From: Myceligenerans salitolerans
Lineage (GTDB): Bacteria; Actinomycetota; Actinomycetes; Actinomycetales; Cellulomonadaceae
NCBI RefSeq assembly: GCF_017349295.1
Contig: NZ_JAFMPK010000047.1
Location: 547,295-611,294 of the forward strand
Direction of reading: 5' to 3'
Length of the DNA: 64,000 bases
In this document: in pieces, positions 52,139 to 58,811 of the stretch
How positions within the stretch are numbered: the first letter of the stretch is position 1
Layout: each line of letters begins with the position of its first letter
Made by a program: the position numbers and the translations under genes
Notes under the pieces: model-generated
Databases searched by the model: none
What the model was told of the DNA's origin: nothing
Seen by the model: only the letters and a program-made list of their open reading frames with translations

Positions 52139-53230
52139 TCACGCCGAGTCGCGGACCACGAGCTCCGGGGCGAAGGTGACCACGCCGCCCGGGCCCACGG
52201 CGTCGTCCGACGGGTCGGCTCCGGGGTCCCTGTCGGGCGCCGGCGCCCCCATGCCCTCCAGGAGGAGCTCGGCCATCCGCCGTGCCATGTTCTCGACCGG
52301 CTGGCGCACGGTGGTCAGTGGTGGATGCGCCTGTGCCGCGGCGCTCGAGTCGTCGAAGCCGACCACGGCGACGTCGCCGGGCACCCGGCGGCCCGCCGAC
52401 TGGAGCGCCGTGCTGACGCCGTCGGCCATGAGGTCGTTCCCCGCGAAGACGCCGTCGATGCCGGGTATCTCGGCCAGGAGCTGTCGTGCAGCGGCCTCGC
52501 CGCCGGGCCGGGTGAAGTCGGCGTCGGCCACGGCCGGCCGGTCGAGTCCGGCGGCGACGACGGTGTCGAGGAACGCGTCGAGCCGGGCCCGCATGAAGGG
52601 GGCGTCCGTCGGCCCGGTCACCACGGCGAGCCTCCGGCGGCCGGTCGCCAGCAGGTGTTCGGCCGCCAGCCGCCCGCCGGCCGCCTGGTCGAGGTCGACG
52701 GCGGGAACGCCGTCGGGCATCGCCCCGCCCGCGATCCGCGCCGACAGCACCACGGGCGTCCCGAGGCCCACCAGGCGCGCGGGTAGCGGGTCGTCCGCAC
52801 TGGAGGTGATGAGCAGCACACCGTCCACGTGCCCCTGCCGGACGTACCGCACCACCTGGTCGTGCGCGGGCGGGTCGGCGGGCATGATCGCCAGGTGGAC
52901 GTCGCGTGGCCGCAATGCCTCCTGGGCCCCCGCGGTGACACGCCCCAGGTACGGATCGGTGAAGATGCGCTCCAGGAACGGCAGCGGTGAGCGGTGTCCC
53001 GGCGGCTCGGACACGACGAGCGCGACCGAGCCGGTGCGTCGTGTCACGAGCGAGCGTGCCGCCAGGTTGGGGACGTATCCCGTCTGCTCGATGGCCCGGC
53101 GCACGACATGGGCGATCGCCGGGTCGACCGTCGGCACGCCGTTGATCACGCGGGACACCGTCGCCCGGGACACGCCGGCCACGGACGCGACGGCCTCGAG
53201 CGTGGGCCGGCCGGAACTCGCTGACGCCAT
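52139..53230 (-). CDS. LacI-family transcriptional regulator, paralogue
   Basis: A 363-residue LacI protein: TLEAVASVAGVSRATVSRVINGVPTV at the start and VPGDVAVVGFDDSSAAAQAHPPLTTVRQPVENMA near the end. A Pro/Asp-rich insert (APAPDRDPGADPSDDA) lies before the last strand. It follows the GH16 gene on the same strand, and TATAAC lies just before its start, so it may have its own leaderless promoter. Likely regulator of the GH16 beta-glucanase, perhaps with overlapping operators with the first LacI protein. Confidence 0.92.
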   Translation of the reverse strand: MASASSGRPTLEAVASVAGVSRATVSRVINGVPTVDPAIAHVVRRAIEQTGYVPNLAARSLVTRRTGSVALVVSEPPGHRSPLPFLERIFTDPYLGRVTAGAQEALRPRDVHLAIMPADPPAHDQVVRYVRQGHVDGVLLITSSADDPLPARLVGLGTPVVLSARIAGGAMPDGVPAVDLDQAAGGRLAAEHLLATGRRRLAVVTGPTDAPFMRARLDAFLDTVVAAGLDRPAVADADFTRPGGEAAARQLLAEIPGIDGVFAGNDLMADGVSTALQSAGRRVPGDVAVVGFDDSSAAAQAHPPLTTVRQPVENMARRMAELLLEGMGAPAPDRDPGADPSDDAVGPGGVVTFAPELVVRDSA

Positions 53231-53322: not shown

Positions 53323-55008
53323 CTACTGGTAGACGCGGACGTAGTCGATCACGTACCGCGACGGGAACGGCGTCGTACCGTCGGGCGGCCCGGGCCAGTC
53401 CCCGCCCACGGCGAGGTTGAGGATCATGTAGAACTCGTGATCGTAGATCCACGGGCCGCGGGTTGCCTCCACCGTCTCCTTGTCCGCGTAGAAGACCTCC
53501 TCGTCGTCGAGGAAGTACCGGATCCCCTGGCTGTCCCACTCGGCCGCGAACGTGTGGAACCCGTCGGAGATCTTCCCGCCGCCGGGCAGGCCGTAGCTGC
53601 CGCCGTACCCTCCGGCACCGTTGTAGGCGGGCGCGTGCAGGGTGGAGTGCGCCTCGTGCGGCTCCTGGCCGATGAACTCCATGATGTCCACCTCGCCGTT
53701 GTACGGCCAGGGACGGCCCTCCAGGAAGTCGGTGCCCATCATCCAGAACGCCGGCCACAGCCCGCGCCCCTCGGGGACCTGGACCCGCGCCTCGAACCGC
53801 CCGTACTGCGCGTGGAACCTGTTCGAGGTGTTCATGCGGTGGGACGTGTACTCGCGGCCTTCGTAGGCCTCGCGGCGCGCCTCGATGACGAAGTTGCCCT
53901 GACCGTCGTGGAAGCCGTTGCCCTCGGGGGTGTAGTACTGCTGCTCGTTGTTGTTGGGCAGGCCGGGATCGATCGTCCACCTCGACGGGTCGGCCGGTGT
54001 TCCGGCGGCGCCGTCGAACTCGTCGTTCCACACGAGCTCGAGGTCGTCGAAATCAGGGTCGGCGGGCTCGGCGGGCGGCGCCTGCGGCGCCCCGCCGGTG
54101 CCGTACACCTGGAACTCCCAGAGCGAGTAGCCGTACGGACCGCTGCGGTCGGTCATGTGGACGCGCACGTGCCGGCCGTCGGCGTCGAGCGGAATCGTCT
54201 CCTTGAAGCCGGAACCGCTCGTGGTGGAATGCACCGTGGTCCAGGTTGTTCCGTCCGCGGACACGTCGATGCTGTACGACGTCGCGAACGCCGGGTCCCA
54301 TTGCAGGACGACGCTCGTGACGTGCGCCGGGGCTCCGAGGTCGACGGCGATCCAGCCCTCGTCCGTCCAGCCCGTGTCCGTCGCCGTGGCCCACCGGCTG
54401 GCGGGGTCCAGGTCGAAGGCCTTGTCCGGCGAGCACTCCCAGCAGTTGGCGTCGTGCTGCTGGGACGAGGCGGAGCCGGTCCTGCCGTACGACAACAGGG
54501 ACTCGTCGGACGGGTCCGGCGTGGTTCCGTCATCCGGGCCGAAGACCTGGAACTCCCACAGTGACACGCCGTAGACGGTGGCGCGCTCGGTCACGAACAG
54601 CCGGACGAAGCGGCCGCTTCCGGTGACGGCGAGGGTCTCGTCGCCACCGGTCGAGTCGTCGGTCGAGTAGATCGAGGACCAGCCGGCACCGTCGTCGGAC
54701 ACCTCGATCCGGTAGCCGGAGGCGTAGGCGGCTTCCCAGTCGAGGGCGACGCCGTCGATCTCCTGGACGCTCCCGAGGTCGACGCTGATCCACTGGTCAT
54801 CCGACCAGGCGCTGGACCAGCGTGTGCCGGGGTCGCCGTCGACGGCCTCGTCCCCGGTGCTCCAGTCGAACTCGGTGCTGGAGGTGGTCACCGGTTGCCC
54901 CTGGGAAAGGGGCTCGGGCGCTGCCAGGGCTGGGGTCACGGTGATCGCTCCCGTGACGAGGGTCGCGGCCGCTGCTACGGCTGCGAGCAGGCGTGATGTT
55001 CGCCGCAT
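53323..55008 (-). CDS. Secreted GH16 beta-glucanase with two F5/8 (discoidin) domains
   Basis: A 561-residue exported enzyme. The signal peptide ends at ALA-AP (29/30). Two F5/8 domains (about 35-160 and 170-300) show RWSSAWSDDQWISVDLG, RFVRLFVTERATVYGVSLWEFQVFG and RHVRVHMTDRSGPYGYSLWEFQVYG. The C-terminal GH16 domain (about 310-561) has ELVWNDEFDG at its start and the catalytic GEVDIMEFIG with Glu439, Asp441 and Glu444. This family-16 pattern is that of laminarinases (endo-beta-1,3-glucanases). AAGGAG precedes ATG 55008. An AGAGCGCTCT operator lies 50 bases upstream, and a LacI gene follows. Confidence 0.93.
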   Translation of the reverse strand: MRRTSRLLAAVAAAATLVTGAITVTPALAAPEPLSQGQPVTTSSTEFDWSTGDEAVDGDPGTRWSSAWSDDQWISVDLGSVQEIDGVALDWEAAYASGYRIEVSDDGAGWSSIYSTDDSTGGDETLAVTGSGRFVRLFVTERATVYGVSLWEFQVFGPDDGTTPDPSDESLLSYGRTGSASSQQHDANCWECSPDKAFDLDPASRWATATDTGWTDEGWIAVDLGAPAHVTSVVLQWDPAFATSYSIDVSADGTTWTTVHSTTSGSGFKETIPLDADGRHVRVHMTDRSGPYGYSLWEFQVYGTGGAPQAPPAEPADPDFDDLELVWNDEFDGAAGTPADPSRWTIDPGLPNNNEQQYYTPEGNGFHDGQGNFVIEARREAYEGREYTSHRMNTSNRFHAQYGRFEARVQVPEGRGLWPAFWMMGTDFLEGRPWPYNGEVDIMEFIGQEPHEAHSTLHAPAYNGAGGYGGSYGLPGGGKISDGFHTFAAEWDSQGIRYFLDDEEVFYADKETVEATRGPWIYDHEFYMILNLAVGGDWPGPPDGTTPFPSRYVIDYVRVYQ

Positions 55009-55057
55009 GACGTGCTCCTTCGAACGTCGGACTGGTGCGGTGACGAGAGAGCGCCAT

Positions 55058-55073
55058 GAGAGAGCGCTCTCTC
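55058..55073. promoter_or_regulatory. LacI-type operator upstream of the GH16 gene
   Basis: GAGAGAGCGCTCTCTC is a perfect 16-base palindrome. Its core matches the site before the GH-A gene, and a second partial copy (CGAGAGAGCGCC, 55044-55055) lies beside it. Confidence 0.75.
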
Positions 55074-55120
55074 GGCATCCACCCTTGCGGACGGAAGTGG
55101 CGGGCGTCAAGGCTTGGCCG

Positions 55121-55251: not shown

Positions 55252-57057
55252 TCAGAAGAGGGCGTCCTGAGCGATGGCCTCGCTCGCGGCCCTTGCGCCC
55301 TGGGCGGGCTCGCTCGGTGCGGGTATCGCCCCCTCGGGGTAGGCGCCCTCCTCGTCGCGGCCGGAGCCGGAGCCGCCCGCCTCGGAGGACAGGGACGCCC
55401 CGGTGCCGCTGTCGACGTCGCCGGCGCCGTCCGCGCCGCCGTCGAACCGCAAGGCCGCGCGCCCCAGGCCGCGCTCCGCGAGCAGCGGTTCCGCCCGGGC
55501 CCACAGCCACTCCTGGTAACGGCGGTCGCTGTACGCGCGGTCCCCGAAGACGCGGTGGTATCCGGCCACGTGCTGGGGGAACTCACGGCGCAGCCACTCC
55601 AGGTACCACTCGCGGGCACCGGGGCGCAGATGCAGCGGAAGCACGGTCGCCCCGGTGGCTCCCGCCTCCGCCACGGCATCGAGCAGGCGGGCGAGGTGGT
55701 CGCGCGAGTCGGTGAGCCAGGGCAGCACGGGAGCGACCATGACGCCGCACGGCAGGCCGGCCTCGCGGATCGCGCGGATCAGCGCGAGCCGGGCGCGCGG
55801 CGTCGGCGTGCCGGGCTCGGCCCGCTGTTGCAGTTCCTCGTCGAGAAAGGCGAGGGAGACGCCCAGCCCGACCTCGACCCGCTCCGCCGCCTCCGTGAGC
55901 AGTGGCAGGTCGCGGCGCAGCAGGGTGCCCTTGGTGAGGATCGAGAACGGGGTGCCGGAACCAGCCAGCGCCGAGATGATGCCGGGCATCAGCCGGTACC
56001 GCCCTTCCACGCGCTGGTACGGGTCGGTGTTGGTGCCGAGCGCGACGGACTCACGGCCCCACGAGGGCCTCGCCAGTTCCGCACGGAGGACCTCGTCCAC
56101 GTTGACCTTGGCCACCACCTGCGAGTCGAAGTCGGCTCCGGCGTCGAGGTCGAGGTAGGTGTGGCTGCCCCGCGCGTAGCAGTTGTGGCTGATCACACCG
56201 TCGGCGACGAAGTCTCCCGTGCCCGTGGTGATGTCCACCATGCCGGTCTCATGACCCAGGTCCTCGATCGACACCACCCTCCGACCGGGCGAGGTCCGCA
56301 CGAGCCGGCCGACGACGTCGGCGCGGGACGCGACGCCGGCGGAAGACACGACGCCGGAGGACGGGCCATCGGTGCCCGGCGAGCCGGGCGCCGCGACGGG
56401 GCCGATCCCGGCGAGTCCGTCCCCGGGGCGCAGGACCGGCCGCGAGGCGCTTCCGATGCCCGGACCGGCCGGCGCGCGGCCGGAAGGGGCGGGGCCGGAC
56501 GGGGCAGGGCCGCCGAACGGAGCGGGGCCGGACACCGTGCGTCCGCCGGACGCCTCACCCTCGGCCGAGGCACTCGCCACGTACCGCCAGCCGTCGCCGG
56601 TGAGGAAGCGATGGTCGCCGCTGGCGACGAGCGTGGTGCCGTCGGCCGTCGTCACCCGGTACGCACGCTTGACGGTGCGCCAGGAGTCCCGGACGTCGGT
56701 CTCCACCAGAATGCGCCGGCCGTCGTCGGGCAGCGTGCCGATGACGCGGTCCCCCGGCACGAGATCGCCGATGGCGCGCCACGTACCGTCGCCGAGGAGT
56801 ACCGGCGTCTCCGGTGCCAGGCAGTAACGGCAGGCATGACTGCAGCCACGGTACGGATTGACGGTCCACCGGAACGGCATCCGGGACGCGGCAGGAACCT
56901 TCGACAGCGCACTCCTGGCCATGACCTCGTGAACGGTGACACCGTCGAACTCGGGACTCCGGACCGTACGGAGCAGCCCGGCCGTCCGCAGCGCGGGTAG
57001 TTCGAGTCCCGGCAGCGCACCGTCATCGCTCGTGAGTTCCTGGCTTGCCCATCGCAC
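55252..57057 (-). CDS. Rv2578c-like radical SAM protein containing an intein
   Basis: A 601-residue precursor. The host protein (387 residues after splicing) resembles Rv2578c: it opens VRWASQELTSDDGALPGLE, has the iron-sulfur motif GCSHACRY|CYARGSH once the intein is removed, and continues with RPSWGRESVALGTNTDPYQRVEGRYRL and PFSILTKGTLLRRDLPLL of SplB-like radical SAM proteins. The last 70 residues are disordered and acidic. The intein occupies residues 79-292, right before the third cluster Cys. GTG 57057 matches the family's start. A SOS box lies 9 bases upstream. The reaction is unknown; relatives are linked to DNA photoproduct repair or damage response by inference only. Confidence 0.9.
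   Translation of the reverse strand: MRWASQELTSDDGALPGLELPALRTAGLLRTVRSPEFDGVTVHEVMARSALSKVPAASRMPFRWTVNPYRGCSHACRYCLAPETPVLLGDGTWRAIGDLVPGDRVIGTLPDDGRRILVETDVRDSWRTVKRAYRVTTADGTTLVASGDHRFLTGDGWRYVASASAEGEASGGRTVSGPAPFGGPAPSGPAPSGRAPAGPGIGSASRPVLRPGDGLAGIGPVAAPGSPGTDGPSSGVVSSAGVASRADVVGRLVRTSPGRRVVSIEDLGHETGMVDITTGTGDFVADGVISHNCYARGSHTYLDLDAGADFDSQVVAKVNVDEVLRAELARPSWGRESVALGTNTDPYQRVEGRYRLMPGIISALAGSGTPFSILTKGTLLRRDLPLLTEAAERVEVGLGVSLAFLDEELQQRAEPGTPTPRARLALIRAIREAGLPCGVMVAPVLPWLTDSRDHLARLLDAVAEAGATGATVLPLHLRPGAREWYLEWLRREFPQHVAGYHRVFGDRAYSDRRYQEWLWARAEPLLAERGLGRAALRFDGGADGAGDVDSGTGASLSSEAGGSGSGRDEEGAYPEGAIPAPSEPAQGARAASEAIAQDALF
56182..56823 (-). other. Mini-intein within the radical SAM gene
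   Basis: A 214-residue intein. It starts with Cys in CLAPETPVLLGDGTWRAI (block A), has TTLVASGDHRFLTGDGW (block B with the conserved His), and ends with VVSIEDLGHETGMVDITTG (block F) and GVISHN followed by Cys (block G and +1 residue). The usual endonuclease is absent; in its place is an 85-residue Gly/Pro/Ala/Ser-rich linker with GPAPSG repeats. Insertion lies inside the CxxxCxxC motif, so unspliced precursor cannot bind the cluster properly. Confidence 0.92.
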
Positions 57058-57392: not shown

Positions 57393-58811
57393 CTACTGTC
57401 CCGTCCCGCTCCCGGGTACGACGCGCGGGTGCAGGTCCTCGGCGGGCGGCTCCCACGTCGTCGCGTCGGCATCGAGCTGCTCACCCGAGCGGATGTCCTT
57501 GACGGAGCCCACGAGGGCGGTCCCGCTCGTGGCGGGCGCGTCGGCGGGCCCGTGGCCGGGCTCGCCCGGGAACCAGACGAACGGGATGCCACGGCGGTCG
57601 GCGTACTTGATCTGCTTGCCGAATTTCGCGGGCGCCGGTGCCACCTCGCACGGGATACCACGTCCACGCAGCGCCTCGGCGACGGCATCGGACACGGGGC
57701 GGGTCTCCTCCGTGGCGACGGCGACGAGCACGGCGGTCGGCACGCCTCGTGTCGCGGTGACGAGACCACCGGACAGGAGCCGTGACACGAGCCGGCTGAC
57801 GCCGACGGACAGGCCGACGCCCGGGTACGTGTTCTTGCCGTCCGACGCCAGCGTGTCGTAGCGGCCGCCGGAGCAGACCGATCCGAGCTGCTCGTGCCCC
57901 ACGAGCACCGTCTCGTAGACGGAGCCGGTGTAGTAGTCCAGACCGCGAGCGATCTTCAGGTCCGCGACGACGACACCCGGCGCTCTGCGGCCCGCCGCCA
58001 CCATGAGCGCCTCCAGCTCGGCGAGCCCGGTGGTGAGGAGCTCCGTCAGCGCACCGTAGGACTCGGCGAGCGCGCGCACCTCCGCGATCACGGACGTGTC
58101 GGATCCGCTGATGCCCGCGAGCGCCAGGCAGGCCTTGGCCTGGTCCTCGCTCGCCCCGCACTGGTCGACCAGGAGCGTGGCGACCTGCTCGTGGCCGATC
58201 TTGTCGAGTTTGTCGATCTGCCGCAGCACACCTTCGACGTCGGACAGGCCGATACCGCGGTAGAAACCCTCGGCCACCTTGCGGTTGTTGACCAGGATCC
58301 GGACCGGCGGCAGGCCGATCTCCCGCAGGGCGCCGAACGCCTCGGCCATGACGAGCGGGACCTCGACCTCGTAGTGGTACGGGAGGTCGCCGGAGCCGAC
58401 GACGTCGATGTCGGCCTGCGTGAACTCGCGGAACCTGCCCTCCTGCGGACGCTCACCGCGCCATACCTTCTGGATCTGGTACCGCTTGAAGGGAAAGGCG
58501 AGCTTGCCGGCGTTCTCGAGGACGTATCGCGCGAAGGGCACGGTGAGGTCGAAGTGAAGGCCGAGCTGCTTCTCGCCGCGGTCGCGCTGCCCGGCCGGGT
58601 CGGCGTCCTGGAGCCGGGAGAGCACGTAGACCTCCTTGGAGGTCTCGCCCTTGCGCAGCAACTGGTCGAGCGGTTCGACGGCCCGGGTCTCGATGCCGGC
58701 GAACCCGTGCAGCTCGAAGGTGTGACGCAGCACGTCGAGCACGTGCTGCTCGACGACACGACCTTGCGGGAGCCATTCGGGGAAACCGGAGAGTGGTGCG
58801 ATACGGGCCAT
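57393..58811 (-). CDS. hisS: Histidine--tRNA ligase
   Basis: A 472-residue class II synthetase. Motifs are LGLHFDLTVPFARYVLEN (motif region near 85-100), FPFKRYQIQKVWRGERPQEGRFREFTQADIDVVG (motif 2) and VVADLKIARGLDYYTGSVYETVLVG (HisA motif), with LSVGVSRLVSRLL as motif 3. The anticodon-binding domain (from about 365) includes PCEVAPAPAKFGKQIKYADRRGIPFVWFPG. ATG 58811 gives MARIAPLSGFPEWLP, the usual actinobacterial start. Neighbours match the hisS-ppi region of mycobacteria. Confidence 0.97.
   Translation of the reverse strand: MARIAPLSGFPEWLPQGRVVEQHVLDVLRHTFELHGFAGIETRAVEPLDQLLRKGETSKEVYVLSRLQDADPAGQRDRGEKQLGLHFDLTVPFARYVLENAGKLAFPFKRYQIQKVWRGERPQEGRFREFTQADIDVVGSGDLPYHYEVEVPLVMAEAFGALREIGLPPVRILVNNRKVAEGFYRGIGLSDVEGVLRQIDKLDKIGHEQVATLLVDQCGASEDQAKACLALAGISGSDTSVIAEVRALAESYGALTELLTTGLAELEALMVAAGRRAPGVVVADLKIARGLDYYTGSVYETVLVGHEQLGSVCSGGRYDTLASDGKNTYPGVGLSVGVSRLVSRLLSGGLVTATRGVPTAVLVAVATEETRPVSDAVAEALRGRGIPCEVAPAPAKFGKQIKYADRRGIPFVWFPGEPGHGPADAPATSGTALVGSVKDIRSGEQLDADATTWEPPAEDLHPRVVPGSGTGQ

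Follow-up and report, generated by a model that had tools for sequence, protein, structure and literature searches.

A mini-intein in the iron-sulfur motif of an Rv2578c-type radical SAM protein, probably the relic of a homing element

Does an intein that lies inside the iron-sulfur motif of an enzyme control that enzyme, or does it lie there for another reason? The question is raised by a gene of the soil actinobacterium Myceligenerans salitolerans, which we analysed within a window of 64,000 nucleotides (contig NZ_JAFMPK010000047.1, positions 547,295 to 611,294; the coordinates below count from the first letter of this window). The initial annotation had described a mini-intein in the motif of a radical SAM protein and had proposed that its splicing is a possible redox switch. 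We confirmed the observation to the base: a mini-intein of 214 residues is encoded on the minus strand at 56182..56823, inside the radical SAM protein. One long frame of this strand reads CSHACRY, then the insert, which runs from Cys to Asn, and then CYARGSHTYL. Reading CSHACRY/C...HN/CYAR in frame (slashes mark the intein borders) also bore out the claim that the insertion immediately precedes the third motif Cys, and that this Cys is residue +1. The whole protein scored above the cut-off of the NCBIfam model NF038136, "intein-containing Rv2578c family radical SAM protein" (747 against 700 bits); this kind of intein is thus already known and catalogued. It seems quite probable that the element splices in cis as an ordinary mini-intein and is the relic of a homing element of the LAGLIDADG type, directed at conserved DNA, that of the radical SAM Cys motif; no regulatory role is needed.

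The host gene occupies 55252..57057 on the minus strand, the strand of all features given here. It is of the Rv2578c type, exceeding the cut-offs of NF038135 (498 against 430 bits) and of Pfam Radical_SAM (49.2 against 29.5), and it probably starts with the GTG codon at 57057, as placed by the MRW... beginning conserved in relatives. The protein has 601 residues with the intein and 387 after splicing. The N-extein (56824..57057) ends with CSHACRY and contains two Cys codons of the iron-sulfur motif, Cys-7 (56842-56844) and Cys-3 (56830-56832), numbered relative to the intein, whereas the third Cys of the mature motif is Cys+1 (56179..56181), the first residue of the C-extein (55252..56181), which comprises what is left of the radical SAM domain and a tail of low complexity. 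In mature form the motif is C-x3-C-x2-C (CSHACRYCYAR), and the residue that follows the insert provides its third Cys; the spliced host has these three Cys residues and Cys223.

Alignment with relatives divided the intein into an N-core of 82 residues (56578..56823), a linker and a C-core of 40 residues (56182..56301) that ends with His-Asn (56182-56187). Cys1 (56821-56823) is the only Cys of the intein, and the N-core contains the block B residues Ser68-x-x-His71; S-x-x-H was found in all 45 aligned rows, across which Cys1, the terminal HN and Cys+1 were also invariant. The structure predicted for the intein has the Hint fold. The N-terminal splicing region was recognised by TIGR01445 (35.3 bits, cut-off 24.5), the C-terminal model TIGR01443, which has 24 positions, gave no match at E<=0.001 in the genome search, and PF14890 stayed below its cut-off (25.3 against 35.8), as it did in three scanned relatives (30.6-32.1). 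HN/C and the C-core are nevertheless conserved in the aligned rows. The best structure match was the Ssp DnaB mini-intein (1mi8) and the best sequence match that of M. smegmatis (6bs8, E 1.7e-5); these DnaB inteins share the Hint fold but reside in a helicase, and 6bs8 is titled a class 3 intein, whereas the window intein has Cys1 as in class 1.

The claim that a linker has replaced the endonuclease was upheld. LAGLIDADG models gave no match in the two mini-inteins scanned, that of the window and L002, whereas PF14528 exceeded its cut-off in both full-length relatives scanned. The proteins of the NF038136 family share with the window protein the host family, the insertion in the iron-sulfur motif and the intein domain; the full-length inteins of the bacterial family are 344-350 residues long, with 222-228 residues between the cores, while the window intein has there a low-complexity linker of 92 residues (56302..56577). 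This linker is made of short stretches that can be aligned to the endonuclease borders of relatives and of an expansion rich in Pro, Gly, Ala and Ser, and much of it was modelled with a predicted local distance difference test score under 60. Its GPAPSG-like stretch is encoded by an imperfect tandem repeat (56474..56532, period 15, 3.7 copies), and a second tandem repeat lies at 56312-56357 (period 18, 2.6 copies). In the genus of the window both endonuclease borders can still be aligned (RPVLRPGDGL.. and ADVVGRLVRTS), and the linker differs in length among all four species (92, 74, 73 and 47 residues). The alignable borders, the repeat-coded text and the varying length together suggest that the endonuclease was lost by internal deletion and that the low-complexity text arose later, by expansion next to the deletion.

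If the intein follows the textbook class 1 pathway, as its conserved residues and predicted fold lead us to expect, the precursor would be made and Cys1 would attack the bond of Tyr-1, the N-extein would then move to Cys+1, Asn214 would cyclise, and the ligated enzyme would gain the intact motif. The endonuclease is gone in the genus of the window, and the splicing core would persist since production of the host protein still depends on it; the position in the iron-sulfur motif would reflect the choice of target, since such DNA is conserved.

How closely is the element tied to this site? The insertion point was identical in 26/26 occupied genes of the bacterial family, in 27/27 parsed occupied loci from a search of the phylum, always before the third Cys, and in 80/80 loci fetched from named genomes, although these counts come from search patterns that asked for this site; no locus given to the patterns failed. 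The fetched loci, mostly from Actinomycetota by title and two from titled proteobacterial metagenome-assembled genomes, were those that most resembled the window mini-intein among 407 confirmed stretches, so that the share of mini-inteins among them (65/80) is biased. The insert profile matched 37 of the 396 genomes sampled from the phylum at E<=1e-30, one with a DUF5131 host and one with a QueE host.

Within the bacterial family the host was matched in 75 of 121 genomes, and 73 host genes could be read (G473, with the host in two fragments, and G479, with a broken frame, were left out). Forty-seven of them were empty, 16 had a mini-intein and 10 a full-length intein. All three states occur in the single genus g257 (4 empty, 2 mini, 3 full-length); empty and full-length alleles occur together in g243 (7 and 3), g259 (5 and 1) and g240 (1 and 1), g244 has nine mini-inteins and one empty gene, and the genus of the window has a mini-intein in 4/4 genomes. 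On a host tree made by a quick method, in which 23 of 70 inner branches are open, the intein state changed 13 times, against a mean of 23.8 after shuffling, and L040/L056 and L036/L041 are empty/full-length sister pairs on starred branches. The mixture of states within genera fits a homing element and its relics. In the g259 host gene of L105 (G479:C5:42762-44981), the C-terminal part of a full-length-type intein is present and the frame is broken upstream, by sequencing error or by decay.

On the tree of the intein core, which rests on 125 columns, the mini-inteins did not form one group; two changes were found, and a single change in 0% of 200 bootstrap trees. A single loss of the endonuclease was thus rejected, and more than one loss is likely.

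We then compared selection on host and insert by the ratio of nonsynonymous to synonymous substitution rates (dN/dS). Among the four species of the window genus it was 0.11 for the host, 0.11 for the intein core and 0.41 for the linker; a conserved splicing core is expected if the host must be spliced, and its constraint indirectly supports self-excision with ligation of the exteins. The host is under constraint also where the insert is absent. In g243 the host values were 0.13 between empty genes, 0.15 between intein-bearing genes and 0.13 for mixed pairs, and in g257 they were 0.18, 0.18 and 0.16, so within these mixed genera host constraint is independent of the insert. A trace of mobility was seen in g243, where L056 and its empty sister L040 differ in 13/60 bases around the site and in at most 5/60 in any of 272 other such stretches. 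Of these 13 bases, L056 shares 12 with L055, an intein-bearing locus from another genus, and 9 with L052. The local tract resembles co-conversion, as homing would leave, and is suggestive.

Several observations weigh against the reading as a homing relic. The genera in which all sampled genes are empty showed higher host dN/dS (g242, 0.25; g245, 0.31; g252, 0.21; g256 left out), so that host constraint has some dependence on intein history, although the difference could be due to lineage. Retention in all four genomes of the window genus is permitted by neutrality, but selection could also explain it. Empty pairs of g243 diverge at the site as well (L040-L046, 16/60, with no other stretch as high), possibly through past conversion or a change of the target site, and four other genera showed no such local divergence there. 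Amino-acid identity between species was lower for the intein than for the host in all compared pairs, with one tie (L001-L004), and among these pairs no recent jump of the intein between genera was seen. It is because empty pairs share the divergence, the other genera are without it and intein identity is below that of the host that the tract, found in g243 only, is no more than suggestive.

A phage vector was also looked for. The viral scan with a query derived from the window found no phage carrier of the intein, and that with the DUF5131 intein gave no match. The only match of the A3 intein-profile viral scan, L298 (IMGVR_UViG_3300048502_000088), was rejected as a vector; this viral contig carries a distant relative of the window intein in a protein that, named by its letters only, is DNA-methylase-like and not radical SAM. 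Searches of phages with tblastn gave partial matches only: the 20 listed among the 100 records of the first search were all terminases, as were six of seven in the second. The seventh, L299 of virus Rctr197k (KX853510.1:19211-22480), is annotated "radical SAM protein-like" and was dropped, because its frame seems to encode a helicase-like protein with an intein and shows no radical SAM Cys triplet before the insert; its label may derive from the intein, which resembles that of radical SAM entries.

Related inteins were found at the corresponding point of other proteins that have a Cys triplet of the radical SAM type. In L025, the one PA0069 host scanned (420.7 bits, cut-off 360), the intein lies before the third Cys. 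A LAGLIDADG intein in a DUF5131 protein of the Gp37/Gp68 type (L186, G214:C135:1200-3484, minus strand; 318 bits, cut-off 28.9), reads TGCDQTSPGCDN/C...HN/CYAM, with Cys1 present and the insertion before the third Cys of C-x6-C-x2-C. In QueE (L187, G101:C4:83200-86800, minus strand; 309.9 against 206.1 bits) the reading is GCDYRCSW/SVTCNTP...RN/CDSKF, with the insertion before the third Cys of CDYRCSW/C. Here residue 1 is an apparent Ser, which we place by the register of block A, and if it is Ser, the precursor would appear to lack the third motif Cys. The window intein profile matched L186 with E 2.4e-53 and L187 with E 9.2e-32. These two inteins come from one genome each and were recognised from match coordinates; DUF5131 exceeded its cut-off in 33 of 276 genomes and QueE (TIGR03365) in 7 of 396, and the four longer DUF5131 matches that we fetched have an intact motif and no insert. 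In the literature that was searched, none of three hosts, Rv2578c, QueE and spore photoproduct lyase, was found in connection with an intein (PA0069 and DUF5131 were not part of this search). Together with the intein of the radical SAM protein MoaA, the three loci suggest an intein group tied to the radical SAM Cys triplet.

The MoaA intein also provides the precedent for the rival that survives best, the redox switch. According to two reviews, which relate the work of Callahan et al. (2011), the MoaA intein of P. abyssi likewise has Cys-3 and Cys1 in a radical SAM protein, and a native disulfide between the two controls splicing (PMC3922620; PMC10663303); this disulfide control is reported for another host and for an archaeal hyperthermophile. 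Judging from Cys-3, the site in MoaA would also lie before the third Cys. The window intein has Cys-3 and Cys1 (CRY/C) in the same C-x-x-C1 spacing, and at the residues that matter here its model could be aligned with 3nzm, a structure engineered as a redox trap. Oxidation would then form the Cys-3/Cys1 disulfide and block the first step, and reduction would allow splicing, so that the cluster can be built. By the MoaA precedent such a switch is plausible, but we consider it unlikely for the window intein. Cys-3 is forced by the insertion site, and as it follows from the site alone it is no evidence of selection for a switch. Among the other inteins of the phylum sample Cys was found at -3 in 0/108 readable rows, which indicates that Cys-3 is a companion of insertion at the radical SAM motif. 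For this control 110 rows (30+80) from the better-scoring part of the list were read for context, and one without context and one misplaced were removed; rows whose match began beyond position 1 of the model were set aside, one or more others were missed, and two recognised radical SAM inteins (G000, G095), lower in the list, are excluded.

The family data also speak against a switch that the enzyme needs. The initial annotation had held that loss of the intein in close relatives without effect would refute it. The intein is indeed often absent in close relatives, including some sisters of occupied genes; "without effect" is judged here from sequence constraint only, and on that measure the loss, with host genes equally constrained in the mixed genera, appears to come near to such a refutation. 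In addition, the intein that occupies this point in QueE apparently has Ser as residue 1, which would make a disulfide with residue 1 impossible. Finally, in Streptomyces an Rv2578c-family gene is the attachment site of phage Samy, and the prophage inactivates it in its native host, which the authors take to suggest no significant impact on fitness (PMC12924846).

A wider form of the same idea is that the Cys triplet is the recurrent home of one intein group (Rv2578c, PA0069, DUF5131 and QueE, with MoaA in print), that the cut before the third Cys gives C-x-x-C1 in the members with Cys1, and that in several of them, including the window intein, oxidation or cluster binding thereby gates maturation. 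We regard this, too, as improbable.

It had further been claimed that unspliced protein cannot hold the cluster. This is too strong because Cys1 of the intein takes the place of the third Cys, so that the precursor motif is also C-x3-C-x2-C (CSHACRYC), as it is in 26/26 occupied genes of the family. A cluster could in principle be held by Cys-7, Cys-3 and Cys1, hiding the nucleophile and delaying splicing until the cluster supply falls or the apo-form dominates. Gating of this kind seems very unlikely to us: the Hint domain may leave no room for a cluster site pressed against it, and Ser1 in the QueE intein would break the motif of the precursor. That the intein is broken or does not splice, the gene becoming a pseudogene, could be argued from the long low-complexity linker and from the broken frame of L105, but hardly seems credible in view of the retained splicing residues, the dN/dS of core and host across four species and the single uninterrupted frame of 742 codons that spans host and intein.

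The surroundings of the gene were judged from translations by eye. Upstream, 57393-58811 resembles a histidyl-tRNA synthetase, and downstream, on the minus strand, 53323-55110 and 52139-53230 resemble a secreted glycoside hydrolase with discoidin-like repeats and a LacI-type regulator. Elsewhere in the same genome the intein profile matched weakly at G000:C32:14127-14360 (E 6.4e-6) and G000:C30:26756-26983 (E 2.4e-5); the frames concerned are very long, with 1743 and 2375 residues, and these are perhaps Hint domains of large proteins.

The main interest of the ordinary cis-splicing mini-intein that we favour is the recurrence at the radical SAM Cys motif, together with the naturally occurring collection of empty, mini and full-length alleles. 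Even if nothing is gated, it shows clearly how one family of inteins keeps to a single catalytic motif in several families of enzymes, and it presents the homing cycle in its different stages at once. If splicing were gated, the intein would be a ready-made post-translational sensor of oxygen or iron inside an iron-sulfur enzyme, and whether conditional splicing matters in cells could be tested on a natural experiment, the coexistence of empty, mini and full-length alleles in one genus.
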